This document shows positions 14,191 through 63,351 of a stretch of DNA of 64,000 nucleotides, in pieces; position 1 is the first letter of the stretch; each line of letters begins with the position of its first letter. Made by a program: the position numbers and the translations under genes. The notes beneath the pieces are model-generated. The model ran no database searches. It saw nothing but the letters and a program-made list of their open reading frames with translations, and was not told where the DNA came from. Source of the DNA: Escallonia rubra (taxonomy: Eukaryota > Streptophyta > Magnoliopsida > Escalloniales > Escalloniaceae); assembly GCA_033065855.1 (NCBI GenBank), contig JAVXUO010002784.1, forward strand, positions 34,155-98,154, read 5' to 3'.

Positions 14191-14219
14191 TCAACCCTCC
14201 CATGAATTCCTATGATAGA

Positions 14220-24777: not shown

Positions 24778-24929
24778 TCGCCACAACCTTTTTTTTTTTT
24801 TTTTTATTATTGACATGTGTGTGCTGTTTGAGTTTCTTTATGAGGATCACATCATTTGTAGTTCATTTACAAACTTGGCTTATGCATAGTATTTCTTTAA
24901 TCGGTCTAGATTGACTAATTGTGACAATT

Positions 24930-25745: not shown

Positions 25746-25747
25746 AT

Positions 25748-29930: not shown

Positions 29931-31503
29931 TATGTGTTTGATCTAGGAGCTTAAAAATAGTAAGTGTAAGCGTCGCTAAAGGCTTGGTTCTTTTCCATTA
30001 GTCCCCAGTATAGTTTTTTAAAAGCCACTTCCAAGCTCATTTTGGCAAAGTGCAAATGAGTAAACCCTGTTATTTTTGCAAGAGCTACGATATGGAATTT
30101 TTTGGGAGATTTTTCCGCATCCGCGCAAAAATGTTAAATGAAAATACTAAGTTAGACAATTTTTATTTGGAAAATTTACAGTGACCTTGTGTTATTGTTG
30201 TAGTGTCTAAAGTTTCTCAGTATTTCGGTACCATTTTTGAGATGTGATGTGGCCAATTAACGCTCATCTAAAATATCAGATTGGAATTTTGATGAGGAAA
30301 AAAATCCCTCAAAGGACTTTTGAGTCCAAAAAACCAATCTAGTTTGCTTAAAAAGATGTTTAAAACTATTTTGGTATTTCAATGGTGCGATGGCCGCCAG
30401 GGGTTTTATTTTTGGAATTTTCCATTCCTGGGGCGAATTTAGACGACATGCATAAATGCACGCCACGAATTATTATTCTTATGATTTTTCCTTTTATATT
30501 CCAATAGAAGAGGATTAGGACCGAAACTCAAGTAAATCTCGGATCCGGTTAGTGATTCAAGTAAGGTCATTTTACTATATTCATGTTGATTACCATATTT
30601 TCAATTATGGTATGTAAAAATGTGTGTACTGTATCAGTTTGATGTTTTGAAGGCTTTTATGATAAACAATTGTTTTTGTTTTAAATTACTTATAAGAAAG
30701 GAAACTATGCTGCCATGAAATGTTTATGCTTTAACCAATTTCGAACATTGTTTAACCAGACTGGGTGAAACCTTCTTAATGGTTGATGTGCCCAACATTT
30801 AATTGGGGAAAATTAGATTTGAAGTCCTTGTCAACTGGACGGAATGCTGACGCGCAGCACTGTCACTAGTGGTCGCCCCTGTGTTCACATTAATGATCAT
30901 CCCAAAGTGGGATTCCGAGTCCAAGTTAGAAGGACCAAATGCTGACTAAAACATACCTACTTAGTTTTTATTCAATTTAAAACACTTATTGATGATAGTT
31001 GTGTTACTGTTTTACTATCTTGAAGGACTGCATACTCAAACCTTATATGTATCTTTACAAGTTATATTCACCGTACCGTTTTGATTTAGCTCACTTCTTA
31101 TTTTTCAGTTAACGAACTAGATAGACCCAACTCTTACAAGGAACACGAGGTAGAGGCATCGGGAGACGATTGCTAGAGTATAGAAAATCCTTTTGGATCT
31201 GATAACGTTTCATTACTTGTGGTTATTAAAGATTGTTGGAATTGTGTAAGGAGCTCAGATCTCCACAAAATTCAGTCCTTATTTGTTAGTCAAGTTCTTT
31301 TGAAGAAATTATTAGCGACATTTTGAGAATCCTTAAGTGCGGCTCTTAGTAGCCTGATTAATGGTGTAGGATTTAGCAAGTTCAAGCAATAGTATGCACA
31401 GGTTACAATAAGGCCTGGCAGAACCCTTGGTGAGAGCCCAATAACATCTTTAGTCGGTCACGGACCTAACGCACGTGCCCAATCGTGGGTTTGGGTCGTG
31501 ACA
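29931..31503 (+). repeat. LTR remnant, family X, + orientation
   Basis: Ends GGGTTTGGGTCGTGACA at 31,503, preceded by an AAGGCCTGGCAGA block as in the copies ending at 51,011 and 54,181. The left part (GCGTCGCTAAAGG, then AAGTGCAAATGAGTAA and TTTTTGCAAGAGCTAC) matches the reverse-oriented copies near 7,400 and 62,500. The MULE at 28,180 inserted into this LTR or its flank. No primer-binding site follows the end. Confidence 0.6.
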
Positions 31504-32553
31504 ATTGCCTAAAATGACCTAGGACACCTTATGATGACTTGACCGGAAGGAGTCGAGTCATCATAAGGGTCAATGACCGAGATCTAGGTCGCCTACCGTA
31601 GGGTTCAATTAAACTACAATGGTTTTGATTCTGGTTAGCTTGACCAGATACATAGGCCATTCGACCACTGATGTTGAGTTCAAACCAATAATATAGGACT
31701 AAACTTAGGATTTATGTTAATGCATGTTTATGCGTTAAAAATGCTAAAAACTAATAGAAATTGAGCAGAAACCGAAATGCTATAGTGAGTGCTTGACACA
31801 TTCCCGTCGTATAACTTCTTTCCTGAATTCGTTTCCTTTATTTCAATAGTTTAGTAGTCATTTGGACATTTTTAGAGTCATTTTCACGTTTTTCTATTTT
31901 ATGAGTTTAATTAAATAAGATGCGCGAATCCTAAAATCTTTAGACCCACTTTTCAGGGTCCAAAGGATTTTTTTAGGCGGTTCGTTATAGTGGTGAAGGA
32001 GGTCGAGGGACTTTCTACGAGCGATGACGATCTACTTAGACTTGTGGTAGAGAAGCTATCGTTGATGACACAGAAAACACTGGTGGCCTGCTAGAGGTTG
32101 AGGCTATATAGGAAAGTTATTTATGGCCCAAACCCTGTATTTTGATTTGTGAAAGAGGGGGTAGTGAAGTGCAGATGTTTGGTTTTATATGGGCACAATT
32201 GAGCCCCACGTATGAAAAATTAAAAGATGGTAGTAACTCAAAGGTTGGTTTAATGTTTTGGGTGTGTGTGTTTAAAATAAATAAGATTATGTATACGGTT
32301 AATTGGGCACCCATTTACAGTCCACTTAAACTCGTGGGTAATTGAGTTGTAAAATAAATGACCCATTTAAGACCAAATAATTAAATGGGTTGATTTGGAA
32401 GAGCTTTAACTAGGCGGATTTGGACGAATAAATGAGTTTCGGTCTTAATTGCCACCCTGAATCCCAACATAGTCATAGCATTTTGTGGATGACAATGTAC
32501 GCGGGAAGTTACATTTATTGTGATAATGTGCCGTGGATAAAAAATTCGGAATG
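31504..32553. other. No gene recognised
   Basis: Mixed-composition DNA between an LTR end and a copia LTR. Frames are short and unrecognised. It could be internal or flanking sequence of family X. Confidence 0.35.
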
Positions 32554-33032
32554 TGTGGGAGTCCCACATTGGTTATTCAGATAATGTTACAACTTAGTCC
32601 TAAGTGTATAAGTCTTGTCTCACATTGGTTATTTAGATAAAATCACTACTTATCTCTAAGTATATATATGTTGTCTTGTATTGTATTTTAAGGACAACAA
32701 TGAAGAGCTATTCTTTGAGAGGGTTTGTTGAGAGAGACAAAGGTCAGTAATCTCTAGTGAAAGTGAAATCGCTGCTACCACCGTGGAGTAGGCTTTTGCC
32801 GAACCACGTAAGTCTTATGTGCCTCTATTTTCTGTTATTGTTTTCGATTCACTTCTTCATTACTTGGTGTGAAATCTAGTATACTTTGACAAATGATATC
32901 AGAGCTGAGGTTCATGGTAGATTAAAAGCACCTTGCAATGGCGCCAAATACTTCGACGAAGTATGATTTGGAGAAGTTTGATGGATCAAACGATTTCAGT
33001 TTATGGAGGATGAAGATGCATGTTGTAGTAAT
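32554..33032 (+). mobile_element. Ty1/copia element, left LTR plus gag start, interrupted by a CACTA insertion
   Basis: The LTR (about 32,554-32,891) begins TGTGGGAGTCCCACATTGG and ends in TTTGACA. A tRNA-iMet primer-binding site TGATATCAGAGC follows at 32,894-32,905. An ATG at 32,938 opens a frame MAPNTSTKYDLEKFDG then SNDFSLWRMKMH, a hallmark of plant copia Gag N-termini. The element is interrupted at 33,033 by the CACTA terminus, and its remainder was not found in the window. Incomplete fossil. Confidence 0.85.
32894..32905 (+). promoter_or_regulatory. Copia primer-binding site (tRNA-iMet type)
   Basis: TGATATCAGAGC lies two bases after the LTR end and fits the TGGTATCAGAGC consensus with one change. 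Confidence 0.8.
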
Positions 33033-33430
33033 CACTACAAGAAAGCAGGTCTTTAGCGACCGAAGATAGCAGTCGCTAAAGGGAGAGAGGCGGTCGCTAA
33101 ACGATTTTAGCGACCGCAAAAAGCGGTCGCTATAGGCCTAGTCGCTAAAATTTAGCTATCGCATTTACTAATTGGTCGCTAAATTTAACGACCATGTTGA
33201 TTATATTTAGCGACCGTTTTGTGCGGTCGCTAATTATTTTTTTTTTGAATTTTTGAATTATTTTTGATTTTAAATATTATTTTATTTCACGACTAGTTTA
33301 GCGACCGCCCCTTGCGATCGCTAATTATTTTTTTTTTATTTTTTAATTTGTAATTTTGAAATATTAAATTAGCGACCGCATTTATTTCGTTTAGTGATCG
33401 CGATGTGCGGTCGCTAAACCTGGATTTTGC
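33033..33430. repeat. CACTA left TIR and subterminal repeats
   Basis: After CACTACAAGAAA, about 14 copies of a TAGCGACCGC-like motif or its complement occur within 400 bp, often as facing pairs (TTAGCGACCG ... CGGTCGCTAA). In CACTA elements such motifs bind the element's own regulatory protein (TNPA in En/Spm). Here they are presumed to play that role. Confidence 0.9.
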
Positions 33431-33487
33431 AACAAAAAAAAAATTCAGGTCAAAGAACATGTCCACATCCTGTCCAAAACCAATATC

Positions 33488-35764
33488 TGTGAGGCCCCGA
33501 TCTTAATTAGCCACTAATCATTTTATTAAGTTTAAACATATTTAAATTTGGTTGAAATAATGTAATCGTGTTATAATATTTGTATACATAAAATAAATAT
33601 CGAAATTAATTGTGGGCCAAAAATATAATTATGTAAAACTTTGGGGGTTAAAAAGTAATTATGCAAAACCTTGGGGCCAATATGCAAATATGAAAAGTTG
33701 GTATTAGTGGCATGCCATGTGTTGCCTTAGGATTAATTATTTGGTGGTGAGTAAGCAAAAGAAACTAATAAAAAAATGGAAAGAAGTCTAAGTGGATAAT
33801 TTAGAAACAAAAGGGAAGGTGGGGTTGCAAGACCTTAGTCTCGGCCAAGAGAAACAAAGAGAAGGGAAAGAGTGGGAAAAGAAAAGAGAGAAAGAAGAAG
33901 GAAGAAAAGAAAAGAGAGAAAGGAAGAAGAGAAGAAGAGAAGAAGAGAAGAAGAGAAGGAAGAGTAAAGGAGGGGGATTTGCATCAACTTTCTCCTATTG
34001 ACTTGAGCTTAATTTTCTTGGTAGGTTATCTTGTGTGTTTTTTTTTTTTTGTTTCAGAACATGCATGAGAAGTATTATGATGGTAGTAAAACACTTATAT
34101 ATATTTTCGAAATGATTCAAGGAGAAGGGGGTTCATGTATACTGAAATCTGCAAAAACAGTCATGGAATTAGGGTACTTTTTGGTGCTTAGAAATGTATA
34201 CTTTTAGTTAAGATATGGACCTGGTTATTTTATATGTTATACTAGTACATGTATAGAGTATACATACCAAATTCCAGATTATTTCAAGTAGTATTACTAT
34301 GGTTTAAAATTCGTGGATTGAAACCTATTCTGTGAAACTGTACAGTCATGGAATTAGAGTACTTTTGATGCTTAGAAATGTATACTTTTAGTTAAGATAT
34401 GGACTTGGTTATTTTATATGTTACACTAGTACATGTATAGAGTATACATACCAAATTTCAGATTATTGCAAGTACTATTGCTATGGTTTAAAATTCGTGG
34501 CTTGGAACCTATCTTGTGAAACTGTTGCTAGGCAGATTCTGAAGTTTGTCTTTTTAAAGGGCTTAATATGATCTTAAAACAATATTTTCGTGTCAAGTAA
34601 AATACTGGGATGTAGATCTTTAAGTCTAGTTTTCATAAATATATAGTTTGACTGTAGAAGCCTTGTAATTAAATTGTTATGATTTTCGGAGTACAGACTA
34701 CTCCTGCTGCCATTTGAAATACTGGGCAGATTAGGTTACATGTTTGGCATGTATTGTTGATAATACAGTAAATATAACTCGACAGGGGATTAAACCTCTT
34801 TTGAGGTACTTGATGAAATTCATGTTGACGTATGTACATGATTATGCATATCACGTGAAGGAGGAGGAAAAAAGTGAGTTGAGGGTGTTATTTGCCGGGG
34901 TTGGAAGTTATCCGGCCAGGGTTCTCGTTCTCGTTAATGTCTTGATAGTGCGCACTAGCTATGCGTACTAATTCTCGAAAGGAATTATTGGTGTGCCTGT
35001 GATGACGTTGGACTTTTTCTATCGAACCCGCTACATCAGTTGGCTGCGATACGAAAAGTCTCTCGCACTCAGGGAAGGTTGGCTCGTGCATGAGGGGCAT
35101 ATTTGCATATTGATATTCTCGTACTTGGCTTATATTTGCCTTGAACTTTTTGTACTGTTTGGTTATTCTTGGCGAGATCAAGTTAATATTTAGGTCTTGC
35201 TTGTCATTCTCGTGTATGTTCTACAAGATTTCAAATCTTGCTCGATATGTTATTCTCGTTTCTTTTGAAGGCAAGTGTGAGCAGATGCTTGCATGTGTTA
35301 CTCGATATGTTAAATTATTCTTAAGTACGTAGGTATCATCTGTTCAAGTGACTTGCATGTTCATACTAACTATACATAATATGATCAAGTCATGTTTGGA
35401 CTTAAAAGCACCGGATACCCTACTGAGCCATTAGGCTGACCCATTCCCGATATATTTTTTCTAGGTTCGGAGTCGGAATATTTGCCAAGGGAAGAAGAGG
35501 ATTACCTCGGGGAGACTCAAGAGTATTACGCTGGGTGAGCAACGTTTTAGTTGTTCTTCTTTTATTTTGGAGTGTAGTACATGTATAGAAGAGAGGTGGT
35601 CTGTAATATAATGTTATGTTCAGTCTTTCCACTTTTGGACGACTGTAATGTTTAAGCATACTTCCGCTGTTTCTTTTGAGGTTTTGTAGTAAAGCTCTGT
35701 TTATCCTTGAGGTATATGTGTTAACTAGCCTGTTTAGCGTTGCGCCCCTTCCGGGGGCGTGACA
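33488..35764 (+). repeat. 5' LTR of the chromovirus, with internal 185 bp duplication
   Basis: Begins TGTGAGGCCCCGATC and ends GGGGGCGTGACA, 2,277 bp. It is about 200 bp longer than its partner because a 185 bp unit (34,157 onward and 34,342 onward) is present twice. A purine-rich AGAAG tract lies near 33,880-33,965. The polyadenylation-region motif CCCTACTGAGCC is about 345 bp before the end. Confidence 0.95.
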
Positions 35765-35769
35765 TTTAA

Positions 35770-35781
35770 TGGTATCAGAGC
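35770..35781 (+). promoter_or_regulatory. Primer-binding site, tRNA-iMet
   Basis: TGGTATCAGAGC, an exact match to the usual plant iMet primer-binding consensus, five bases after the 5' LTR. Confidence 0.95.
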
Positions 35782-35887
35782 TATAGTTGCTTGGAAGCCA
35801 GGCTAAGATCTTCGGAATTGATTAGTTTATTTGATTCGAAATTCGGTATGGCCTAAACATATTTTTCCACCTGTTCAGGTGTTATAT

Positions 35888-37000
35888 ATGGCGGGCCAGA
35901 GAAAGGAAAGTATTGTGGGGCAGGGTACACAAGAAATTGATCCTAATTTGCGGGAGATAATTGGATTAGTTGGACGTATAGCTAATGCCCTAGAATCTTC
36001 GCAAAATAATCAGCAACACAGTCAGGTTGGCGAGAGTTCTCAGGTGAGATACGCTATAGCTACTGATGATCTGACCTTACTTGAAAGATTTGTTAAGCTT
36101 AAGCCTACTGTATTCGCGGGTGGCGCTAATTCAGATGAGGCAGATGAATGGATAAGCAATAAGGAGAAACTATTTGAGAGAATGCAATTAACTCCTTCAC
36201 ATAAAGTTTCTTTGGCTACTTTTTATTTGAGTGAGGATGCGGGGTTTTGGTAGAAGACGATTGATGCGAAGTGGACAGCCGGTAATGTGATAAGAACTTG
36301 GGATTTGTTTAATATGGAGTTTAATAACAAGTATATTCCGGCAAGTGTTAGAAGAGATAGGGAATTGGCTTTCCTACTACTTGAACAGAAAAACAAGACT
36401 GTACAAGAATATGAAAAGGAATTTACTGCTTTAGCTCGACATGCTTCCTATCTGGTTGAGGGTGGTGATAGGAAAGCCAGAAAGTTTGAAACTGGCTTGA
36501 ATCCTGACATACAGGAAGCTATAGCACCTCTTAATATCTCTGATTATCACGAGATTGTAGATCGGGCACTTAATATTGAGAGGACTTTGAGGTTTACACG
36601 GGCAAAGAGGGCACATATGAGTTTATCTAGGCCCCCGGTGCCACAGTGGCAGGCAGGAAGATTTCCTTCAACATCTGGTGATAGGAAATTTCTAAGAACA
36701 GATATGAGGAGTATGGCGTATACACCTAGACCTCAGACACAGGGATTTATGCCCCGACCATTTATAACCGGACCACGACCTCAGCCTAGGCCTGGAGTGA
36801 GGCCTACTCAGTATATACCACCTCAACAGCAGCTTGTACAAGCAGTTAGTCGATATTGCACATTTTGTGGTATGACTGGGCATACAGAAGAGGTTTGTAG
36901 GAAGAGAAAGGGAACATGTTTTGCATGTGGGACACAGGGGCATCATATGAGGGATTGTCCTAAGAATAAAGGATCTGTGGCTATTACTGCTGGGGAAGCA
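35888..37000 (+). pseudogene. Chromovirus gag region (capsid and nucleocapsid)
   Basis: Starts at ATG 35,888 (MAGQRKESIVGQ). A retrotransposon gag domain follows with the FxxxYxP and QxxxxVxxYExEF-type motifs of gypsy Gag, here QEYEKEFTALARHASYLVE. A proline/arginine-rich linker comes next, then two cysteine knuckles (CTFCGMTGHTEEVC and CFACGTQGHHMRDC) near 36,855-36,960. Such proteins form the particle that packages the RNA. The region is part of a broken fossil and no repaired product is proposed. Confidence 0.9.
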
Positions 37001-37099
37001 TCTGGTACTGGTATTGGTACCGGTAGAAGGGTGAATAAACCGACGATAAAGGCTAGAGCATTTGCACTGGGACATGATGAGGTACAGGGATCGCCTGCT

Positions 37100-40000
37100 G
37101 TGGTTGGAGCTACTGTTCTAATTTCTGGTTAGAATATTGATTGATCCTGGCTCTACACATTCATATGTCGCATCACATTTCTTACATCATTTGCCTATGA
37201 TGTCAGAGTCTTTACCTTTTGTGGTCAAAGTCAGTACCCCTGTGGGTGATTCTTTATATACAGATAGAGTGTATAAAGCCTGTGAGATTAACATGAATAA
37301 CCACATATTGCATGCCAATTTAATTGCACTACCTATGCAGGAGTTGGATGTTATTTTGGGTATGGATTGGTTATCCTACAATCATGCTAGTGTTGTCTGT
37401 TTTGCGAAGATTGTTACGTTTACTTTACGTGATCAGTCGGTATTCATGTACATGGGTGATAAAAGTCCAACTGTTGTCCCTATTATTTCTGCCGTACGTG
37501 CTCAAAAGTTACTTGATAAGGGTTGTGTGGGATATATTGTGTATGCTATTGACTGTTCAAAGACAGTGACTAGGCTGGAGGACATCCCTATTGTTCAAGA
37601 ATATTCGGATGTATTTTCTCAGGACTTGATTACTCTACCACCTGATAGGGAGATAGAATTTGTTATTGAACTTGTTCCAGGCACTGCACCTATATCTAAA
37701 GCTCCCTACAGAATGGCTCCTGCTGAGTTGAAAGAGTTAAAGGTGCAATTACAAGATTTACTTGATAAAGGTTTTATTAGACCAAGTACTTCACCTTGGG
37801 GCTCGAATGTCTTATTTGTTAAGAAATATGATGGTACCTTACTTTTTTGTATCGACTACAGACTGTTAAATCTGGTAACCATAAAGAATAAATATCCATT
37901 ACCCCATAGCGAGGATTGGTTTGACCAATTGGAATGAGCCAAGATATTTTCCAAATTGTCATCAGTTAAAGGTGAGGGAGGAGGATGTCCCTAAGACTGC
38001 TTTCAGGACTAGGTATGGTCATTACGAATTTTTAGTTATGCCATTTGGGGTTACTAATGCACCCGCAGCGTTTATGGACTTGATGAATAGCATATTCAAA
38101 CCATACTTGGATAGTTTTGTGGTAGTCTTTATTGATGATATTTTGGTTTATTCTCGGGATACCCAACAACATGCTCAGCATCTTAGACTTGTTTTGCAAA
38201 CCTTACGGGATAAAAAGTTGTATGCCAAATTTGAAAAGTGTATGTTTTGGTTGGAACAAGTTGCTTTTCTGGGGCATATATATCAGTGGATCCGGCTAAG
38301 ATTGAGGCTATACAAAGTTGGAAAACGCCTTCAACAGTATCGGAGGTACGTAGTTTTTTGGGGTTAGCCGGATATTACCGTAGATTTGTTGAGGGATTTT
38401 CTAAAATTGCTGGTCCATTATCCCGTTTGACTCAGAAGAAAGTAACTTTTATTTGGGATGATAAATGTGAGAATAGTTTTCAAGAGTTGAAACATAGATT
38501 GGTCAGTGCACCTATTTTGGTTCTGCCTAACGGGAATGATGATTTTGTAATATACAGTGATGCATCTCACAAAGGTTTGGGTTGTGTGCTTATGCAAAGA
38601 GGTAAGGTAATTGCGTATGCATCACGTAAATTGAAGCCATATGAAGAGAATTATCCTACCCATGATCTAGAGTTAGCAGCTATTGTTTTTGCCTTGCATA
38701 AGTGGAGACATTATCTGTATGGAGCAGTATTTGAGGTCTACACCGATCATAAGAGTTTGAAATATTTATTTTCACAGAAGGAATTGAATATGAGACAACG
38801 TAGATGGATGGAATTATTAAACGATTACAGTTGTTCTATTTCATATCACCCAGGTAAGGCTAATGTGGTTGCTGATGCCTTAAGCCGACCGACTATGATT
38901 GCTAGTTTAATCCTTAAGGATTGGCGTTTGTTAGCTGTTGTGTGTGATTGGAGGCCGTGTGCAACTAGAACGGGATTTTTATTTGCTAATATTAAAGTTT
39001 GGCCAGCATTAATGCAATTGATACGGGAAGCTCAGGGAAAGGACCCAGAGTTGCTAAAAATTAGAACGGAGGTGGAGCAAAGGTTACAACCTGAATTTTC
39101 ATTATCTTCGGAAGATATATTGAGATTTAGAGATCGTGTTTGTGTACCAAATGATGCCGAGGTTAAACATGAGATTTTGAAAGAAGCACATCAGAGTAAG
39201 TACAGTATTCATCCGGGTAGCACTAAAATGTACAGAGATTTGAAATCACATTATTGGTGGAATGGTATGAAAGGTGATATAGCCAAATTTGTTTCCAAGT
39301 GCCTAACATGTCAGCTGGTAAAGGCAGAACATCAAAAGCCGGGTGGTTATTTACAGCCTCTATCTATTCCTGAGTGGAAATGGGAGCACATAACTATGGA
39401 TTTTGTGACAGGTTTACCACGGACTCGAGACGGAAATGATGCCATTTGGGTAATAGTAGACCGTCTTACTAAGTCTGCACATTTTCTTATTCTTTTTATG
39501 AAATATTCCATGGAAAAACTAGCTAAGCTATATATCGATGAGATAGTTCGTTTGCATGGAGTTCCTGTTAGTATTGTTTCCGACAGGGATCCACATTTTA
39601 CTTCTCGATTTTGGCAAGCTTTTCAGAAAGCTATGGGTACACAGTTGGCCTTGAGTACAGCCTTTCACCCTCAGACAGATGGTCAGAGTGAGCGTACTAT
39701 TCAGACCCTGGAGGATATGTTACGAGCTTGTGTGATAGACTTGAAAGGTAGTTGGGATTCACATTTACCACTTGTTGAATTCTCTTATAATAACAGCTAC
39801 CATTCTAGTATCGATATGGCTCCTTATGAGGCGTTATATGGAAGAAAATGCAGATCTCCAGTTTGTTGGTCAGAGGTTGGGGAAGGTGAGCTTATCAAAT
39901 CTGATATTATTCGTGAAACCACTGATAAGATACAAGTAATTCAACAACGTATCCGTACAGCACAGAGTCGACAAAAGAGCTATGCTGACACTCATCGACG

Positions 40001-40436
40001 TGGTTTGGAATTTTCGGTGGGCGACTTTGTTTTTATTAAAATTTCTCCAACGAAAGGAGTCATGAGATTTGGTAAGAAAGGTAAGCTATCTCCGAGGTTT
40101 GTTGGGCCTTATGAGATTTTGGAACGGGTTGGTGATCTAGCGTATCGGGTTGCTTTGCCGCCTTCATTATCTGGAGTACACAATGTCTTTCATGTATCTA
40201 TGTTGCGTAAATATCAGCCAGATCCTTCACATGTGTTGCACGATCAGCCGGTTCACGTAGAAGCAGATATGTCTTACGTTGAGCAGCCGGTGGAGATTTT
40301 GGATCGTCGGGATCAGGTATTGAGGAATAAGGTGATTCCATTGGTTAAGGTCAAATGGCAATACCATGATATTGAAGAAGCTACCTGGGAGCGTGAAGAT
40401 GAGATTAGGTCTAAGTACCCGCACTTGTTCACATGA
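37100..40436 (+). pseudogene. Chromovirus pol region (protease, RT, RNase H, integrase, chromodomain)
   Basis: Aspartic protease with [10 protein letters not shown] lies near 37,140. Reverse transcriptase (about 37.7-38.4 kb) has [16 protein letters not shown] and FIDDILVYS. RNase H is at about 38.5-38.9 kb. The integrase has an HHCC zinc region near 39,190-39,330 and core motifs [20 protein letters not shown] and [11 protein letters not shown]. The C-terminal chromodomain near 40,280-40,430 includes [20 protein letters not shown]. Domain order and the chromodomain place it in the Tekay/Del branch. It is part of the broken element described above. Confidence 0.93.
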
Positions 40437-40463
40437 TCAGGTATGAATTTAGGGACTAAATTC

Positions 40464-40480
40464 TTTTAAGGAGGGGAGAG
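40464..40480 (+). promoter_or_regulatory. Polypurine tract
   Basis: TTTTAAGGAGGGGAGAG directly precedes the 3' LTR, as expected for the plus-strand primer. Confidence 0.9.
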
Positions 40481-42560
40481 TGTGAGGCCCCGATCTTAAT
40501 TAGCCACTAATCATTTTATTAAGTTTAAACATATTTAAATTTGGTTGAAATAATGTAATCGTGTTATAATATTTGTATACATAAAATAAATATCGAAATT
40601 AATTGTGGGCCCAAAATATAATTATGTAAAACCTTGGGGGTTAAAAAGTAATTGTGCAAAACCTTGGGGCCAATATGCAAATATGAAAAGTTGGTATTAG
40701 TGGCATGCCATGTGTTGCCTTAGGATTAATTATTTGGTGGTGAGTAAGCAAAAGAAACTAATAAAAAAATGGAAAGAAGTCTAAGTGGATAATTTAGAAA
40801 CAAAAGGGAAGGTGGGGTTGCAAGACCTTAGTCTCGGCCAAGAGAAACAAAGAGAAGGGAAAGAGTGGGAAAGAAAAGAGAGAAAGAAGAAGGAAGAAAA
40901 GAAAAGAGAGAAAGGAAGAAGAGAAGAAGAGAAGAAGAAAAGGAAGAGTAAAGGAGGGGGATTTGCATCAACTTTCTCCTATTGACTTGAGCTTAATTTT
41001 CTTGGTAGGTTATCTTGTGTGTTTTTTTTTTGTTTCAGAACATGCATGAGAAGTATTATGATGGTAGTAAAACACTTATATATATTTTCGAAATGATTCA
41101 AGGAGAAGGGGGTTCATGTATACTGAAATCTGCAAAAACAGTCATGGAATTAGGGTACTTTTTGGTGCTTAGAAATGTATACTTTTAGTTAAGATATGGA
41201 CCTGGTTATTTTATATGTTATACTAGTACATGTATAGAGTATACATACCAAATTTCAGATTATTTCAAGTACTATTGCTATGGTTTAAAATTCGTGGCTT
41301 GGAACCTATCTTGTGAAACTGTTGCTAGGCAGATTCTGAAGTTTGTCTTTTTAAAGGGCTTAATATGATCTTAAAACAATATTTTCGTGTCAAGTAAAAT
41401 ACTGGGATGTAGATCTTTAAGTCTAGTTTTCATAAATATATAGTTTGACTGTAGAAGCCTTGTAATTAAATTGTTATGATTTTCGGAGTACAGACTACTC
41501 CTGCTGCCATTTGAAATACTGGGCAGATTAGGTTACATGTTTGGCATGTATTGTTGATAATACAGTAAATATAACTCGACAGGGGATTAAACCTCTTTTG
41601 AGGTACTTGATGAAATTCATGTTGACGTATGTACATGATTATGCATATCACGTGAAGGAGGAGGAAAAAAGTGAGTTGAGGGTGTTATTTGCCGGGGTTG
41701 GAAGTTATCCGGCCAGGGTTCTCGTTCTCGTTCATGTCTTGATAGTGCGCACTAGCTATGCGTACTAATTCTCGAAAGGAATTATTGGCGTGCCTGTGAT
41801 GACGTTGGACTTTTTCTATCGAACCCGCTACATCAGTTGGTTGCGATACGAAAAGTCTCTCGCACTCAGGGAAGGTTGGCTCGTGCATGAGGGGCATATT
41901 TGCATATTGATATTCTCGTACTTGGCTTATATTTGCCTTGAACTTTTTGTACTGTTTGGTTATTCTTGGCGAGATCAAGTTAATATTTAGGTCTTGCTTG
42001 TCATTCTCGTGTATGTTCTACAAGATTTCAAATCTTGCTCGAAATGTTATTCTCGTTTCTTTTGAAGGCAAGTGTGAGCAGATGCTTGCATGTGTTACTC
42101 GATATGTTAAATTATTCTTAAGTACGTAGGTATCATCTGTTCAAGTGACTTGCATGTTCATACTAACTATACATAATATGATCAAGTCATGTTTGGACTT
42201 AAAAGCACCGGATACCCTACTGAGCCATTAGGCTGACCCATTCCCGATACCTTTTTTCTAGGTTCGGAGTCGGAATATTTGCCAAGGGACGAAGAGGATT
42301 ACCTCGGGGAGACTCAAGAGTATTACGCTGGGTGAGCAACTTTTTATTTGTTCTTCTTTTAATTTGCAGTGTAGTACATGTATAGAAGAGAGGTGGTCTG
42401 TAATATAATGTTATGTTCAGTCTTTCCACTTTTGGACGACTGTAATGTTTAAGCATACTTCCGCTGTTTATTTAGAGGTTTTGTAGTAAAGCTCTGTTTA
42501 TCCTTGAGGTATATGTGTTAACTAGCCTGTTTAGCGTTGCGCCCTTCCGGGGGCGTGACA
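40481..42560 (+). repeat. 3' LTR of the chromovirus
   Basis: 2,080 bp with the same ends as the 5' LTR. It carries one copy of the 185 bp unit, a shorter AGAAG tract and a shorter T run. It is followed by ATATC and resumed CACTA sequence. Confidence 0.95.
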
Positions 42561-42632
42561 ATATCAATCCAAAAGCAATCCGAATCCAATACTAATCCAA
42601 GGTTAAATAGGTCCAAAAAATGATTTAAAATT

Positions 42633-42698
42633 GGTTGAAACGGTTTTGAATGAATGCGTTGAAAGTTTTCAACGCATTCATTCAGAACCGTTTCAACC
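42633..42698. repeat. Near-perfect inverted repeat, 32 bp stem, 2 bp loop
   Basis: The left arm 42,633-42,664 starts GGTTGAAACGGTTTTGAATG. The right arm 42,667-42,698 is its reverse complement with a single difference, which would be a G:U pair in RNA. The loop is two bases. A third partial copy, CGCATTCATTCAA, lies at about 42,708-42,720. It is inside the CACTA, downstream of the stop of its Transposase_24-like gene (read on the - strand) and next to the chromovirus insertion. Confidence 0.95.
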
Positions 42699-42865
42699 CC
42701 CTGTCTCGCATTCATTCAAATAACTTGTCCAAAGGCTATCTACTCTACACAATAAGTCATAAGGGTCGCATTCATCAAACTATATATAAACATATGCATT
42801 AAAATCAATAAATTTTGGATTGAACCAAAATTAGAAAAACGAGTCAAGTATACATACCCCTTATC

Positions 42866-44339
42866 ACTAGCCGGCAGAACAACCAACCCCGTCATCATCT
42901 TCTTCATTCCTCGATGAAGGCACATTCGATCCAACAACGTCCTCACCGCCCTGGGGATCACCGGCACTAGGATCAATATCGCTCTGCATGAAGCCATACA
43001 AATGATTCAACATAATATATACAAATCAAGATCACATATAGAATGACCAAAATACATAAATACTTGAGAAAATTTGTATTACTTGAAATCTGGGCCCGGG
43101 CAAAAAAAAAACCGCCATGGATCATCATCTGAAGTCGCTCATCAAACCATGTGGCGGTGCTCTTTCTCCGTCGCTTCATCCCAAGGACCACTACAACTGG
43201 TCTCGCCTGACGACTGAGCTCTGCCAGCTAGCAACGAACGTGCGGATTGACGAGGGTCACCAAGTATACGGTCCTTCTTAGGACCCCTTGTAGCTTCTGA
43301 CCACAAAGATACCTCGTCCACTATCTGGCTACCATCTGCCTGGGAGTTGACCTGGAATTTTTCTTTATATGAATTACGTATAAGAAAACAATGGAAATGT
43401 TAGAGGAATGCTACTGGCCGTAACCAATAAGAATGCAATAGGAATACAAAAGTAATACAAGAGTTGTGTGCTCACCGCAAACTGTTGCGCGCTCTCAGCC
43501 ACCCACTTCCCATATTTGTTTTGGGGTGTGTGCTCAAAGAGGAGGAGCCTCATAGGAGGGCATGTCTCAGGGTCCTCTTCTCTCAACCTCAGTTCGTGCA
43601 CAACAAATGGGCCGGAACCAACACTATGCTTCATCGTCTTATCGCTGTGAGCCATCTCCTTGCCTCTCACTCAGCTTCGCCCAGTCTGTTGTACACCAAT
43701 GCGACACCAGCTGCCCCCACATGGCTTTGGAGAAGTACTCAGGGTTATGGTCCCTGGCCATAGATATATATGTCGCACCCGCCCGAGCTAGCGCCCACCT
43801 ACTCGCATTGAGCATCCATTTCTTGTAATTTTTGGAACAGTGTCACTCCTAGGCCTGCCTCTCAAGCTCTTGGTCTCCGTCGAACTCAAATTTGAAATAG
43901 TTCTGAAGAGAATTCAACACAATTTCAAACACAGTTAATAAGAAAAATTCAACAATAATGTACTTCTAAAACCAAATAAAGCACATAAAAATACTGTGCT
44001 CCTTACCAAGAACTTCCCCCAGACAAGTTCCTTGTTTGCTTCCGTCCACGACCCCCACGTCGCATAAGGCTGTGGGAGGTGGGCCTTGATAATAGGACCG
44101 ATTTTGGTCCTAACACAATCCTCAACAAAGCTAATTACAAGAAATCACAAGAGAGATACATCAATCCCAATGTGAGTGCGTATTAAGTTAGAATTGAGCT
44201 TTGAAAATAAAAAACATACTAATTGTCTCGGACATAAGCAGTAATCCTCTGCTCCGGGGTGGCTGGAAGAGAGGTATCCCGCGGGTGATACCTCTCGGTA
44301 CAGATGAACTAGACGCTGCAAATGATGAAAAAGGAAGAC

Positions 44340-44384
<45 letters not shown>

Positions 44385-44560
44385 CAACAAATACCTTTCA
44401 ATTCGACACGAAACTAATATTTTCTCACCATGGTCTGATGCTACTGATGATGAGGTCGGCTGCTCATCAGTAGTCGCGTCACCAATCCTAGGGAGGGGGG
44501 GGGGGCGAAGTAGCTCCGCAACGGCCAACTCCACGACCTCGGGGTGCACTGTATCTCGGC
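42866..44560 (-). pseudogene. CACTA second gene (Transposase_24-like), multi-exon, probably disrupted
   Basis: The - strand start is near ATG 44,560 (MPRYSAPRGRGVGRCGAT). An exon reads CVRTKIGPIIKAHLPQPYAT then WGSWTEANKELVWGKFL before a GTAAGG donor (about 44,010-44,130). Another reads KWMLNASRWALARAGATYIS and a segment ending EHTPQNKYGKWVAESAQQFA before GTGAGC (about 43,470-43,830). The last exon ends with SSRNEEDDDGVGCSAG and TAG near 42,866. The spacing of a W-rich block and the 'THTxKxGxWV'-like motif fit Transposase_24, the DNA-binding partner of the transposase in CACTA elements. A run of ten or more C/G near 44,500 shifts the frame, and stops occur in the middle exon (for example near 43,640-43,850), so this copy is likely inactive. 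An (AT)n tract (44,343-44,382) lies in an intron. Confidence 0.7.
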
Positions 44561-44779
44561 ATATCTACAAAAAGTGGAAGTGCAAAAGTTAATTGAGTCT
44601 GATTAGTTCGCTTGAATAATAAACAACTTAAGCGCAAAAGTAAATCAATTACAATGTAGTTCGCACGAATAACAAACAACTTAAGTGCAAAAGTTAGTAC
44701 GCTAACAATGTGGCACGGCCGAGTATAAAAGACAACCCAATTTAAATAGTCAACCACCATCAATTAATAATCAATTCAA

Positions 44780-47700
44780 TTTAAATAATAAACACCACAT
44801 GTGTAAAAGTACATTGATAAGAATCTTTTTGTTTTACACAGGCAATCACTATCACTAACAGACAACGAAACGTCTTCCTCCTCCTCGTCATCTTCGTCCC
44901 CTTCATCTCCATCGTCTTCTTCTTCATCATTAACTTTTTCCTCGGAATCATCGTCATCATCATCATCACAGAGGGCTTTAGCATCGACCTCTTCTCTAGC
45001 ATGGCCTAAATCCCAAAGAGGCTCATCAACAAGATCGTTATCCTCCTGAAGCGGTACCACTGTGGGAGCATCATCCTCTTGGTACATCTAACGAACATAT
45101 CATCATCAACAAAACCTCTTTTGGTCTTGATAACAGTACGCCAATTTGGGTCTTTCCTTGTCACACCCTTTGCATAGAAAACCTGCATTGCTTGAGCTGC
45201 AAATACAAATGGTTTGTACGATCTGAGCCTTGGCCTCATATTAATGTCTACAATCCCATGTCGACTAACTCGGATACCAGCTGTAATGTCAAACCATCTA
45301 CACTTGAACATTACCAGTCGATTACTCCTGCCATAATAATCTAGTTCAACAACCTCCTCCAACTGCCCATAAAAATCACGCTCACTATATTATAATAGTC
45401 ACCTTTGACTAAAACTCCACTGTTTTGGGTTTGTTTACTAAGGTCAACTTCCATCGTGTTAAACCTAAACCCGTTAACGATGTACCCTTTATAACACAAA
45501 ACTAGTCTACTAGGGCTAGCAGCAAGCAATTTAAGACGAACATCAACTCCATCATGGGCGGTCTACAACAACAAACAATTTGCACAAAGTATTAAGTTAT
45601 TACCTGTGGTCTTTATTAGAAATAAGATGTGGTTTTAAAACTTACGCACAGTCGGAATCACTCAGGGAACGCGTTGTTTCGCATTTTTTCAAGTTGTCCA
45701 TCTGACATCCCAGGGTTTGTGAATAACACTTCCTCATCGTATTCATTGTATGTTATATAGCATCGTCATTATATTATGTTCTTGAACTATGAGAAGAAAG
45801 ATATATGCATTCATGAGAGCGTACAATGTTGCGGCAATATACTCTTCCTCTGATAAATATCGACCACTCCTTGCTCCAAGTGCACGACTAAGATGCATGA
45901 ATATGGAAAGACGCTCATCGAATTCTATGTCGACACTATTGTCATTGCGACCAAGCCGATTCATCTTTGTATCGGCATCAGTCTCAAAGTAAAGGGAGCA
46001 GAAGTTGGTAAGTTCCTTAAGGATGTAAGCCTCTGCAATTGAACCTTCAACGCGGGCTTTGTTACGCACATTTTTCTTCAAGTCAAACATATACCTATGT
46101 AAGAAATAAGTCATTTTCAGTAAACAATGCATGTGTGCAAGTATGAAATACAATTTAAAGATGGATAGGCGACATCACCTCTTCAATGGATACATCCACT
46201 GATACTGCACAGGTCCGCCCACTCTAGCCTCATATGCTAAGAGAATGGTCAAATGCTCCATCGAGTCAAAGAATGACGCGGGAAATATTTTCTCTAACTT
46301 GCACACTGTCTCAACAATGTTTTTCTCAAGAATCTTAACATCATTCTCTCGAAGCACCTTTGAGCACAAATCGCGCAAGAAATGACTAAGTTCAGTCAAT
46401 GCTTCATTTACTGGCTTGGCAAGAGGTCACGAAAGACAATTGGTATAAACATTTTCATAAACCATGACAATCATGACTCTTTAAACCATAAAACTTATAA
46501 TCAGCAAGGTTGCAACAACATGATATATTAGATGCATAGCCATCTGACAGCTTCAGCAATTTAACCCACTTGCACACCTGTTGTATCTGCTTTTTATCCA
46601 ATGTATAGACTGCTTTGGGCAAAACTAGCTTGCCATTAACCATTCGTGGATGTAATTCACGCCGTATACCCATCATATGCATATCTCTGTGTGCTTTTTG
46701 GGTGATCTTTTGATTTGCCCTTGACATTCATGACTGTATTAAATACATTTTCAAAAAAATGTTTCTCAATGTGCATAACATCAAGATTGTTGTGGAGAAG
46801 GAGGGTCGGCCAATAAGACAGCTCCCAAAAGATGCACATTTTCTTCCAGTTGTGTTTTTTTTCAAAGCTAGGAAGTTTTAGACTGGCAGCAAATTTTCCA
46901 AATGGTACCGCATCCATGTCAAGGTCCTTTACGCACATATACACTTCTTCCCCAAACAATCTGTCATGTGTTTTAACGCAATGCTCCACAGTTTTATCAA
47001 ACTTATCTTTTTGCCTTCGAAATGGATGATTAGGTAGTAAGAATTGTCTGTGACACCCCCGAAAGAAGCCTTCCCCCCGTGCTTTAAGGTGAAAGCTTTA
47101 CTCACTTCCATACAATAAGTACATGCCAACCTACCATGTGTACTCCACCCACACAACATACTGTATGCAGGGAAGTCATTGATAGTCCACATGACTGCTG
47201 CCCTCAAGCTGAAGTTCTGTTCAAGAGATGCATCAAATGCTGGACTCCAACTTCCCATAGAATTCTTAACTCATCGATCAACAACCGTAAGTACACGTCT
47301 ATATTTTTACCTGGGCTTGTAGGTCCAGGAATGAGTAATGATAAAAACACGAACTGCTTCTTCATGCACATATCCGGAGGAAGTTTATACAGGACAATGA
47401 TCACAGGCCACGTAGAATAAGGTGTGCTAGAATGCCCAAAAGGATTAAAACCATCAATAACAAGGCCAAGTCGCACATTTCGAACCTCTGCAGAAAAAGA
47501 TGGGTGTCCGCGATCAAATTCCTTCCATGCCTCTCCATCGGCAGGGTGTCTCAATAAATCGGGAACTTTGCTGCTGACGTTGCTATGCCATTTCATGTGC
47601 TCTGCCGTTTTAGAAGAGTAATACAACCTTTGAAGCCTTGGTGTCAGTGCAAAGTATCGCAATATCTTCCATGCTATCTTCCTTTTCTTCCCACTAGTTG

Positions 47701-48460
47701 GTTTATACCTTACGTGGCAACAAACCGGACACTCATTCAAGTCATTGTTCTCTTTCCAGAATAAGACACAATCATTATTACATACATCTATCTTCTAGTA
47801 CCCCAAGCCAAGTTTCATCATCATTTTCTTAGCACTATAGTATGTGTTAGCTAGGCAACTTCTCATCCCCTGGCAACATTTCTTTATTAAGCTTTAGAAA
47901 AATATCAAAACCTCTATCACTAAGACCATGCTCAGACTTTAAGTGTAGCATCCTTGTCACAGTAGATAACTTGGTGTGCTTTGTACTTCCATTTCATATT
48001 GGCTCCTCAGAGTCTTTTAACAAATTTATAAAACTTATGTGCACTCGGGTTTGGCTTTTCTTCCACATTAGGATTACAATCATTAAAATAGTTATCCCAG
48101 TTAATCCCACTAGGCCCAGCTTCCATTACCATATGTTGATACTGAGAAAATCCTGAATCTGTAGGACTACTATTTGAACTCAGTGGGCACCTCAGTGGTC
48201 ACCCTCAGAATTGGTTCCCCGTGCTGAGTCCAATTCGTATAGTTACTCATAAAACCTTTATGGAAGAGATCATAAATTACATCGTCGGGGGTTTTCCAAC
48301 TTAACAGCTGACAATCATTGCACGAATATTTAATCGTGTCGTCATCCTCAAAGTCTCGTTTATTCAAAGCGAAGTGAATAAACCCGTTCACTCCCTGTCA
48401 AAACTCTTCTGATACCCAAATCCCACTTGGAGCAATCCTCCATTGTATCCAACTTCTATC
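44780..48460 (-). pseudogene. CACTA transposase, TNP2/Transposase_21 type with DUF4218 and DUF4216
   Basis: From right to left on the - strand the plant TNPD layout is complete. An N-terminal Transpos_assoc segment has DRSWIQWRIAPSGIW then GVNGFIHFALNKR (about 48,180-48,460). The TNP2 core contains ECPVCCHVRY, RYFALTPRLQRLYYSSKTA, LRHPADGEAWKEFD, VRLGLVIDGFNPFG, STWPVIIVLYKLPPDMCMK, LLIPGPTSPGKNIDVYL and WTINDFPAYSMLCGWST, then NNLDVMHIEKHFFENVFNT (about 46,640-47,800). DUF4218 follows (about 45,740-46,430), then DUF4216 with YYGRSNRLVMFKCRWFD (about 45,080-45,400) and an acidic D/E-rich tail (44,870-45,000). The transposase cuts and pastes the element at its CACTA termini. The expected initiator ATG before DRSW is CTA, and a frameshift lies near 47,060, so the copy looks disabled. 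Introns may explain other frame changes. Confidence 0.88.
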
Positions 48461-48539
48461 TAGTGATATGATATATATCTCTCACTACCTGTTGAACCTA
48501 TACAACTCGAGTTCCAATTTAACCTTCAATTTGAAAAAA

Positions 48540-49560
48540 AATATATTGAGTAGTCACTTAGAGTTAATAACCGTCAATTAGTCTTTATTAAGCGTTAATT
48601 AGGGCTAGTCAGTGTTAATTAAGGCTGATTAGGGCTAATCAGTGTTAATTAGGGCTGATTAGGGTTAATCAGTGTTAATTAGGGCTAATTAGCCTAATCA
48701 ATGTTGATTAGTGCTAATTAGGGCTAATTAGTGTTAATCAGTGTTAACTAGGGTTGATTAGGCTAATCAGGTCTAACTCGAGCTATTTGGGGTATTAATT
48801 GGTTTCATTAGAGTTAATAACCGTCAATTAGGCTTTAATTAAGAGTTTATGAGAATTAATCAGTGTTGATTAGGGCTAATTAGTGTTAATTATGGCTAAT
48901 TAAGGTTAATCAATGTTAATTAGGGCTGATTAGGCTAATCAGTGTTGATTTGTGTTAACTAGGGCTAAGTAGGGTTAATCAGTGTTAATTAGGGCTAGTT
49001 AGGGCTGATTAGGCGGATTAGGCTAATTTTTGAGCTATTTGGAGTAATTTATAGTTAATTGATTTAATTAGAGTTAATAATCGTCAATTAGACTTTAATT
49101 AAGAATTAATTAGGATTAATCAGTGTTGATTAGGGCTAATTAGGATTAATCGATGTTTATAAGGGCTAATTAGGGCTGATTAGGCTAAAATCAGTGTTAA
49201 TTAGGGCTGATTAGGCTAATCAGTGTTAATTAGGGCTAATTAGGGCTGATTAGGCTAATCAGGGCTAATTCGAGCTATTTGGGGTAATCTATAGTTAATT
49301 GATTTAATTAGAGTTAATAACCGTCAATTAGGCTTTAACTAAAAGTTAATTAGGATTAATCAGTATTGATTATGGCTAATTAGGATTAATCAGAGTTGAT
49401 TAGGGCTAATTAGTTTTAATCAGTGTTAATCAGGGCTGATTAGGGCTGATTAAGCCAATCAGGACTAATTCGACACCTGTTGGGGGTACTTTATAGTTAA
49501 TTGATTTAATTAGAGTTAATTAGAGCTAATCAATGTTGATTAAGGTTAATCTATGTTCCT
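48540..49560. repeat. Degenerate tandem array of TTAGGGCTAATTAGTGTTAATCAG-like units
   Basis: For about 1 kb the sequence is built from short phrases TTAGGGCTAATTAG, GTGTTAATCAG and GGCTGATTAGG. A longer period of roughly 250 bp is marked by AGAGTTAATAACCGTCAATTA at about 48,560, 48,810, 49,070 and 49,310. There is no coding frame. It lies immediately 5' of the CACTA transposase (upstream on the - strand), where the promoter would be. Confidence 0.88.
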
Positions 49561-50339
49561 AGCGCAAATTCGCAAATTTCAAACATATTTGCCACCCTTT
49601 GACACGAATGTCCAACTAAGTTTGAAATAGAAATTTCAACGCCGGAGATATAATTAGTATATCTCGAACTGGTTACAAAGCATCATACACGTTCTCTATC
49701 ACATCAATATACTTCGTCGGCATTCCGTTGTACTCTTGATATAAAAACTCCATACTCCTGACTTCGTTGTTCTGTGAGCTTCTTCGAAGTCCAAAGTATC
49801 CTCGGACGTAGTCGACATTCTTTCAAAAACATATTTAAAAACAAATTCAAAAATAGATTTAAACATATTCTCTGGGGGTTTCTGTTCTCTGTTAAATTTG
49901 TCTTCTTATCAAAGCTTAAAAGTTTATAACTAACAACCTACAGGCTGGCAGAGGTTTAATCAAGCATTACACATCCCTCAATCAAAGAGCTACTACCAAA
50001 TAATGTCTCTGAAGCACTTTCAATACTAAATCAGGACTAAGTATTTCTACAAAAGATTGCTAGGTTGATAACTGGGGCTGCAGAACTGTGGTACAGATCA
50101 AACATGCAGGCATGTACAAAGTCATTGAATGCCTTAGCATAGCTTAGCACTCAAACGTAACAACCCCAGTAAATTGAATTGTGGTAACTTGATGCAAGAC
50201 TCAACTAACTTCCTTACCCTTAATGTTGAACCGAAAGGTGAAAACAATGTAAATTAGGATGGGAATCATTAACCTTTTTCTGAAGTAAATGCTGCAACAA
50301 GGGAAATCATACCTCCTCCTTTAGTAACAATCATGTACT
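49561..50339. other. No gene recognised
   Basis: AT-rich DNA between the CACTA array and a hAT-like end. The - strand near 49,700-49,820 has a short open stretch that could be an upstream exon of the CACTA transposase gene, but I cannot support it. No CACTA terminus is visible. Confidence 0.35.
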
Positions 50340-50911
50340 ACTGCGGCAATACTGGTGGGGAATGCCGCTCAGGTGAAGAGAGGAGCTGGTGGGTACGGCG
50401 CCGGAGATGGTGATGGTAGTTGCTCAGATATGTTGGGTTGCGACAGTGAAGAGAGGAGTTGTCGATTACGGTGCCAGAGATGATGATGGTAGACGCTCAG
50501 ATCTGTTGGGTTGCGACGGTGAAGAGAGTTGTTGGGTACAGCGTTGGAGATGGAGATGGTTGGGCTGCGGTCTTGTAGAGATGGTTAGTCGACGACTAGT
50601 TGTTAGGTTGCTGTCTTGCAGAGATGGTGATCGTCGTCGGCAGATGGTTGGTCGTAAGTCATAAATCGTTAAGTGTTGTTGCAGATTAGGGATTTTCTTT
50701 TGTTTATATGGCGACCCATTTGGACCCGCGGGTCGAGCCACCCAACCCACCATAACCCTTGTTTATATTAGTAACCCAAATCTGATCCGCGGGTCGAGCC
50801 ACTCATCCGATGGGTTGACTTGAGTTGACCCGCAGAAGCTAAAAACAAGCGGGTTGGGTTGGGTTGTATGGGTTGGGTTGTATGGGTTGGGTCATATATT
50901 TTGCTAGCCCT
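50340..50911 (+). mobile_element. hAT-like element end (right terminus)
   Basis: Three or more diverged repeats of a unit with GGTTGCGACAGTGAAGAGAGG and GGAGATGGTGATGGTAG (50,370-50,640) are followed by GGGTTGGGTTGTATGG-type repeats and the terminus TTTTGCTAGCCCTA at about 50,911. In reverse this reads TAGGGCTAGCAAAA, a common plant hAT start followed by GACCCAACCC repeats. LTR family X sequence resumes directly after it. The facing terminus and the 8 bp duplication were not found. Confidence 0.6.
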
Positions 50912-51011
50912 AGTAGTAAGGCCTGGCAGAGCATTTGGTTGGAGTCCAATGGGTCTGCGGCCAATCACGTATCTAGCTCATGGGGCCTACTCGTGGGTTC
51001 GGGTCGTGACA
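50912..51011 (+). repeat. LTR family X, 3'-end fragment
   Basis: GTAAGGCCTGGCAGAGC through GTGGGTTCGGGTCGTGACA, about 100 bp, matches the ends at 31,503 and 54,181 and the reverse copy at 5287. It is cut on the left by the hAT-like end. Confidence 0.8.
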
Positions 51012-51424
51012 AGTGGTCTGTGGAGTGAATGTGCAGTAGTGTGTGCGTGAATATGCAGTGGTACCCTATGCTTGCATAGGTGTACCATAAGTTCGTGCAA
51101 TGTTCGACACATGAGTTGGGTAGTGCACAGTGATCGTTGGCGTGTCAAAATTTAAAGTATAAAACCTTAGGCTATATTATAATTTCTGGCAAAATTTCAT
51201 AATTTTCTAAAATCGTGTGTATTTTTAATATTTTCTATAAATTTAGATTTCTAAAATCATTTGGAGTCTTTAAAACCCATGAAAAAGTTTTGGAAAAATT
51301 AGAGTAAGTGCCAGATTAAGTTTGGTGATTTTTAGAACTGATTTGCTATCATTCCCGTATCGCATTGGATTTAGCAAAACGAAAAATTTAAAAATAGTTT
51401 TGATGCCTCTTAAATTATAATTTA

Positions 51425-52714
51425 GGGTAAATTACACTAAACACCCATGAGGTTTTACGTAATTACACTCCACTACCGCTATCTTTAAAAATTACACTCC
51501 GACCCCCCGAGGTTTGTACCCGCATTACACATAACTACACACATTTAACGGCAGGCCCAACTCCGTGAAAAGATTCCCTGACACATTACTTTATGCAATT
51601 TTTCATACCCAAAATACCCCCCCCCCTGTCCTTTAATCACTTGTGTGGTTTTCCTAAATTTCAGTCAACTCCACAAACTCTAAGTGAATTAGGGAGTTTA
51701 ATTTAGCCAATTTACGGTTCAATTAGCTCATTTCAGGATTCAATTAGTTCAATTTAGGGTTCGATTAGATTAGGGTATTCAATTTAGGGTTCAATTAGGG
51801 ATTCAATTAGTTTAATTTAGGATTCGATTCGATTAGGACATTTAATTTAGGTTTTAATTAGGGTTCAATTACTTCAATTTAAGGTTCAATTAGGAGGTTC
51901 TATTAGTTCTATTTAGGGTTCGGTTGAATTTGGGCATTCAATTTAGGGTTCAATTAGTTCAAGTTAGGGTCCGATTGGATAATGGCATTCAATTAGTTTA
52001 ATTTAGGGCATTCAATTTAGGGTTCATTTACTTTAATTTATGGTTCAATTAGGGTTCAATTTAGGGTTCGATTGAATTATGACATTCAATTTAGGCTTCA
52101 ATTAGGGGGTTCAATAAGTTCAATTTAGGGTTCGATTGAATTAGGACATTCAATTTAGGGTTCAATTAGTTTAATTTAAGGTTCGATTCGATTAAGGCAT
52201 TCAATTTAGGGTTTTATTACTTCAATTTAGGGTTCAATTACTTCAATTTAGGGTTCGGTTGAATTATGTCATTCAATTTAGAGTTCAATTAGGGGGTTGA
52301 ATAAGTTCAATTTAGGGTTCGGTTGGATTAGGGCATTCAATTTAGGGTTTAATTAGGGGTCCAATTAGTTTAATTTAGGATTTGATTCGATTAGGACCTT
52401 CAATTTAGGGTTTAATTACTTTAAATTAGGGTTCAATTATGTGTCTAAGTGAATTAGGGCATTAAATTAGGGTTCAATTAGGGTATTCCCTCCAATAATT
52501 CCCAAAAACAAGTTTTCCCTCCAATAATTTCCAAAAACAAGTTTTTCCTCCAAAATTCCAAGAAAACAGTCTGAGGGGCATTCATGTCTTTTTGCACTGC
52601 ACCATTAACACTGTAAGAGAAAAAGTTACTTTTTGAGCTGAGTGTAATTTTTAAAGATAGCGGTAGTAGAGTGTAGTTACGTAAAACCTCAGGGGTGTTT
52701 AGTGTAATTTACCC
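51425..52714. mobile_element. Non-autonomous MULE, perfect 9 bp duplication
   Basis: Inverted termini start GGGTAAATTACACTAAACAC at 51,425 and mirror it at 52,714. They stay about 95% alike for at least 75 bp, to the TTTAAAAATTACACTC block. The 9 bp duplication TATAATTTA lies at 51,416-51,424 and 52,715-52,723. Length is 1,290 bp, with no transposase. The interior is mainly a minisatellite. It inserted into a family X LTR. Confidence 0.92.
51665..52490. repeat. Minisatellite of TTTAGGGTTCAATTAGGG-like units
   Basis: Phrases AATTTAGGGTTCAATTAG, GGGCATTCAATTTAGG and GGTTCGATTGAATTAGG repeat with no strict single period for over 800 bp. Units contain TTTAGGG, the plant telomere heptamer, but separated by TTCAAT spacers. 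Wholly inside the MULE. Confidence 0.85.
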
Positions 52715-63348: not shown

Positions 63349-63351
63349 TAA

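Follow-up and report, generated by a model that had tools for sequence, protein, structure and literature searches.

How three plant transposons came to lie one inside another, and in which order they arrived, is the question raised by the locus analysed here. The window, i.e. the whole stretch of 64,000 nucleotides under study, corresponds to positions 34155-98154 of contig C191 (C191:34155-98154) in an assembly of 566 Mb and 3,222 contigs; contig and window share their end, and the transposons present point to a plant. The analysis confirmed a nest in which a Ty1/copia element is outermost, a CACTA transposon lies within it and a Ty3/gypsy chromovirus is innermost. An Rfam search of the window returned nothing at gathering score.

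The copia fragment and its junction with CACTA

The outermost element is represented on the plus strand by a 5' LTR (32519..32891), the sole LTR of this copy within the window, whose start was set by homology and whose 3' end was set by eye against a relative on contig C1430. The nest therefore begins at 32,519 and not at 32,554, where the sequence-only reading had placed its start. The LTR is followed by a primer-binding site, TGATATCAGAGC (32894..32905, plus strand), one mismatch away from the word TGGTATCAGAGC that is carried by C1430 and that we take to be of the tRNA-Met type. The Gag start, which opens in translation with MAPNTSTKYDLEKFDGSNDFSLWRMKMHVVV at 32,938, is cut after 95 bases (32938..33032, plus strand) by the CACTA terminus.

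The relative on C1430 is a 4,886-bp element, whose two LTRs measure 386 and 432 bp and share 84% identity. Its domains (locus L053) include PF14223, which is matched by its Gag, PF22936, PF13976 and PF07727, and the window fragment is assigned to copia because this relative carries copia-type Gag and RVT_2 domains. The second copia LTR is absent from the window, so that neither paired LTRs nor a target duplication are seen and the copy is a fragment. When the rest of the element was sought with the 6-kb stretches L053 and L054, only AT repeats matched the window beyond the LTR and the gag start.

The limits of the fragment were defined by comparing positions 32,001-54,000 with 19 fetched non-self loci of the copia family (L030-L048), array matches shorter than 900 bases being left out. 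Homology starts at 32,513-32,521 in 18 of these loci and at 32,586 in the other one; it stops at 33,018-33,041 in all 19, i.e. at 33,032 (n=10), 33,026 (n=5), 33,022 (n=2), 33,018 (n=1) and 33,041 (n=1). In the junction comparison, made for 10 of the 19 loci with a query that extended no further than 33,032, intact copia relatives read CTAAT followed by TCAGCAAGG, or near it. The window reads GTAAT followed by CACTACAAGAAAG from 33,033, and contig C2256 likewise switches to CACTACAAGAAAG. The copia relatives thus bear out the claim that the copia part, from its LTR through the primer site to the Gag start, gives way to a CACTA end at 33,033. C2256 was omitted from the 40 of 1,282 copia candidates that were scored and its copia surfaced otherwise, so that absence from such lists means little.

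For this first step, the proposed order is supported by a single precise copia/CACTA junction, seen in both C191 and C2256; the right end of the CACTA element, where the second copy of a 3-bp duplication would lie, and the remainder of copia are missing from the window. With only one CACTA side present, and in an element that does show breakpoints (at 49,726, and in C2256 at 45,454/51,823), the contact might also be a deletion or rearrangement joint that fell by chance at the CACTA terminus, with no insertion. This we consider improbable, because in both contigs the break interrupts gag midway and coincides with the first base of the terminus CACTACAAGAAAG, which a random joint would seldom hit exactly. 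Insertion of the CACTA element into the copia gag is the reading that we retain.

The CACTA element and its right-hand breakpoint

The left end of the CACTA element (33033..33487, plus strand) was delimited by word counts and by the junction comparison. It consists of the terminus CACTACAAGAAAG and of GCGACCG/CGGTCGC subterminal repeats: nine of the 13 occurrences of GCGACCG in either orientation fall within these 455 bp, the other four lying elsewhere in the 64 kb. The rest of the element (42566..49726, minus strand), defined with relatives and oriented by its transposase, ends at a breakpoint, its right terminus being missing. It contains a TNP2-type transposase region broken up into several reading frames (45006..48397, minus strand), where PF02992 was matched at 2.2e-48 along with PF13963, PF13960 and PF13952; two of the seven CACTA pieces in one Pfam search gave no match at all. 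On the 5' side of the transposase lies a tandem array of the TTAATTAGGGCTAATCAGTG type (48548..49557, no strand assigned), common to the relatives on C309, C2354 and C2419. A 66-bp near-perfect palindrome, 94% self-complementary, was also observed in CACTA at 42633-42698; 29 opposite-strand rows of this type were listed, the window's own among them.

Members of the CACTA (En/Spm) family have a TNP2 transposase, a CACTACAAGAAA terminus and subterminal repeats in both orientations. The window copy resembles them by its CACTACAAGAAA terminus, its two-orientation subterminal repeats and its Transposase_21, DUF4216, DUF4218 and Transpos_assoc domains; unlike a full element, it is truncated and lacks the right terminus. 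No exact CTTGTAGTG was found right of 33,033 in the window, in a search that could miss a diverged one, and the element is cut at 49,726 with neither an inverted right terminus nor a 3-bp target duplication. No right terminus was recognised in the relatives on C309 and C2354 either, both of which run past the array into sequence unmatched to the window. One TTGTAGTG occurs at L063:501, inside the C2354 element, adjoining window position 45,596.

The end of the nest, first placed at 49,560, had to be moved: this position was ruled out as the CACTA end because on C2419 the array continues into sequence that the window also has, as far as 49,726. Similarity to a second repeat begins at 49,724, the two matches overlapping by 3 bases at 49,726. 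The copies of this other repeat on C2269 and C1323 have in common a left neighbour that differs from the one in the window, which indicates that the CACTA sequence stops at a breakpoint lying within that repeat.

Several further repeats were observed. The stretch 49724-50911 belongs to a repeat family with copies that terminate in TTTGCTAGCCCTA or TTTGCCAGCCCTA; the left part of the repeat has been lost at the CACTA breakpoint. The 1.3-kb stretch 51414-52725 has 86-bp inverted ends (93%) and an inner array of the TTAGGGTTCAATT type, and for its left end 30 places with 92-98% identity were listed. On the left side of the window, 14219-14657 and 20554-20998 form a direct repeat pair, 91% alike and 6.3 kb apart, which are perhaps the LTRs of an older element.

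The chromovirus and its target site

The Ty3/gypsy chromovirus spans 33,488-42,560 within CACTA, between two plus-strand copies of the target-site duplication ATATC (33483..33487 and 42561..42565), both identified directly in the sequence. It comprises, all on the plus strand, a 5' LTR of 2,277 bp (33488..35764; TG...CA) with a 184-bp tandem duplication at 34,157-34,525, a primer-binding site TGGTATCAGAGC (35770..35781, by sequence), a defective gag-pol (35888..40436, by reading frames and Pfam), a polypurine tract (40468..40480, by sequence) and a 3' LTR of 2,080 bp (40481..42560; TG...CA). Two LTRs, a primer site, a polypurine tract and a 5-bp target duplication are thus all present. As had been claimed, the CACTA subterminal repeats run into the chromovirus LTR at 33,488 and CACTA resumes past the second ATATC, the interruption being 33,487/42,566.

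The copy looks defective because gag, in the frame read from an ATG at 35,888 picked by eye, is interrupted by an in-frame stop at 36,251, and because there are three changes of the gag-pol frame ahead of 38,370 (within 37,122-37,132, 37,885-37,937 and 38,235-38,367). A Pfam search that left out the piece 37,885-38,367 gave matches above cut-off for gag, protease, RNase H and the integrase zinc-binding domain, and below cut-off for the integrase core and the chromodomain. The latter (PF00385, 4.4e-05, 23.7 bits vs a cut-off of 25.1) lies after the integrase and SH3_Tf2-1, as expected. Chromovirus clades (Tekay, Reina, Galadriel and CRM) and chromodomains are described in passages of PMC6317226. 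The window copy resembles the Ty3/gypsy chromoviruses of those passages by its gag, protease, RNase H, integrase, primer site and 5-bp target duplication, its C-terminus being at most chromodomain-like, with a match below cut-off; unlike them it has broken frames, and it is assigned as a chromovirus only, the Tekay clade of the sequence-only reading being a putative label.

Two length differences were observed at and beside the LTRs. The 184-bp unit is present in two copies in the 5' LTR and in one copy in the 3' LTR; match lengths suggest that both forms exist among the LTRs of the family, so that loss of one unit from the 3' LTR after insertion is possible. Just upstream of ATATC, at 33481/33482, 12 bp (a TGTC-AAAACC unit) are missing from the window that are present in 12 of the 13 CACTA relatives aligned (in C2256 at about L050 928-940), C1395 being gapped nearby.

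The sequence-only reading had held that an accession with a single ATATC and uninterrupted CACTA would support the proposed order. Such an empty site was found in the same assembly, on contig C2256, which has the same copia/CACTA junction as the window and where the only ATATC lies within unbroken CACTA sequence. The pieces of this contig that were compared, between 22 kb and 64 kb, are arranged as in the window. The match to 22,001-27,000 falls into two parts (98% and 96%), which are separated by about 3.4 kb of additional sequence; the left flank 31,500-32,518 and the right flank 56,001-63,000 each match at 99%, further matches being 32,483-33,481, 42,559-45,454, 51,823-53,433 and 53,426-64,000. 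Over the 18 kb of C2256 that were compared, nothing matched the chromovirus (33,488-42,560), LTRs included. The empty-site string was found exactly in one place (C2256), with three further places at 2 mismatches, and the same string read backwards had 0 occurrences; the occupied left junction, searched with up to 3 mismatches, was found once in 566 Mb, in C191 only.

Other CACTA copies were examined with a 135-base joined query (60 + 75 bases of flank, joint after base 60), read-through being defined as one alignment from base 50 or lower to base 75 or higher. Among 22 CACTA places outside C191, which are those cut out as loci and not all genomic copies, 14 align across the insertion site (C2256, C622, C1183, C3194, C2354, C309, C1010, C387, C1640, C68, C1395, C2011, C1386 and C131), C3194 and C2011 with short arms on one side; the other eight gave no alignment across it (C1625, C2359, C1071, C577, C2548, C3100, C3118 and C1916). 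In an alignment of 13 of these 14 places (C2011 missing), CACTA runs across the insertion point. The last step of the order is thereby supported by the duplicated ATATC, by the empty-site copy and by uninterrupted CACTA relatives.

Compared with the window, C2256 lacks 45,455-51,822 (6.4 kb), part CACTA and part beyond, in a gap that covers 49,726; at the gap ends (45,454/51,823), the BLAST matches on either side have 6 bases in common. Since C309 has the CACTA part of 45,455-51,822 (84%), this gap probably arose by a deletion in C2256. Near 53,426, C2256 also carries about 1 kb absent from the window (L050 5484-6529), with inverted-looking ends TAGGGATGGCAAT / ATTGCCATCCCTA, which is probably a separate insertion.

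The left flank was matched at 99% or more by C191 and C2256 only, the next match being at 77% (among 40 of 1,672 candidates scored), and the right flank at 98% or more, at least in part, by C191, C2256, C2257 and C2666 (among 40 of 11,015 candidates scored), C2257 and C2666 starting inside it. These flank matches on several contigs imply that the locus is present in the assembly in more than one version; C2256, a second copy of it, may be allelic, homoeologous or the product of a recent duplication. An assembly of 3,222 contigs, with four covering the right flank at least partly and two of them starting there, invites the objection that the nest is an artefact joining unrelated contigs or repeat copies. 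We judge this very improbable, given that ATATC matches on both sides, that the same CACTA continues on either side of the insert, that C2256 matches both flanks in order and that the window's single N (62,963) lies outside the nest. We give almost no credence to a former chromovirus in C2256 that was then cleanly lost, for which no support was found and against which stand the usual loss of LTR elements as solo LTRs, the single ATATC of C2256, where the 18 kb examined contain nothing that matches the LTR, and the 13 of 21 CACTA places besides C191 and C2256 that also align across the site.

Divergence, proposed history and significance

The two LTRs of the chromovirus differ by 18 mismatches over 2,080 aligned positions (7 transitions and 11 transversions), i.e. 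a K2P distance of 0.87% (bootstrap 0.48-1.31), in line with the value of about 1% first estimated by eye. The five gaps are all in the 3' LTR, one of them of 184 bp. These figures come from a global alignment; a BLAST count (18 + 11 mismatches) was set aside because its pieces split at the 184-bp repeat. The age of the chromovirus would be about 0.33 My at 1.3e-8 substitutions per site per year and about 0.62 My at 7e-9, these absolute values depending on the rate adopted.

Between C191 and C2256, K2P distances are 0.58% (32,001-32,518), 1.20% (53,601-64,000), 3.87% (32,483-33,481), 3.41% (42,566-45,454) and 4.03% (51,823-53,426). Per 500-bp bin the values range from 0 to 8.5%, with the copia fragment near 1.1% and the CACTA end at 6-7%; patches of 6-8.5% at 33,019-33,481 and 43,066-43,565 were observed beside stretches of 0-1%. 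This uneven divergence makes substitution clocks rough here. Moreover, the LTR range (0.48-1.31) and the range for the right flank (0.99-1.42) overlap, and the two can be told apart by presence/absence alone: the chromovirus is placed after the split of the two versions because it is absent from C2256, the LTR pair alone being no proof. CG/CHG transitions account for 11 of the 35 differences in 32,519-33,481 and for 22 of the 96 in 42,566-45,454, which indicates that methylation-driven change is not behind most differences. The mosaic between the two contigs could reflect conversion between dispersed CACTA copies instead of mutation in place, a possibility that we regard as rather unlikely; were it true, substitution dating inside such elements would be unreliable.

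Taken as a whole, the following history appears very probable to us. A Ty1/copia element would have inserted first, and a TNP2-type CACTA transposon would next have entered its gag. The Ty3/gypsy chromovirus would later have been placed by its integrase into the CACTA subterminal region, with duplication of ATATC, C2256 representing the version of the locus before this event. At some point a deletion or rearrangement would have removed the CACTA right end and the remainder of copia, bringing CACTA position 49,726 into contact with internal sequence of a different repeat. Directly observed are the junctions, both copies of ATATC, the empty site and the loss of the right side; how each step took place, the deletion in C2256 and the ages in years are inferred.

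The survey PMC6911290 reports, for 12 plant genomes, 1,491 nested/original pairs and a share of 87.2% for 5-bp duplications. As in the nested LTR retrotransposons described there, a younger Ty3/gypsy element lies here inside an older transposon with a 5-bp duplication; that text concerns a search for LTR-in-LTR nests, whereas the host in the window is a CACTA DNA transposon. A narrow literature search on CACTA/copia/Tekay nesting returned no paper and a broader one returned 15; we do not claim that this particular order is new to the literature.

The nesting of transposons belongs to textbook biology, and the present arrangement is an ordinary, though well-resolved, new instance, which alters nothing in the understanding of how copia, CACTA or chromovirus elements work. 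Its value lies in a clean presence/absence pair, the pre-insertion state being kept in the same assembly, so that the locus provides a clean marker of this kind and, for this one place in the genome, a means of checking LTR dating internally.
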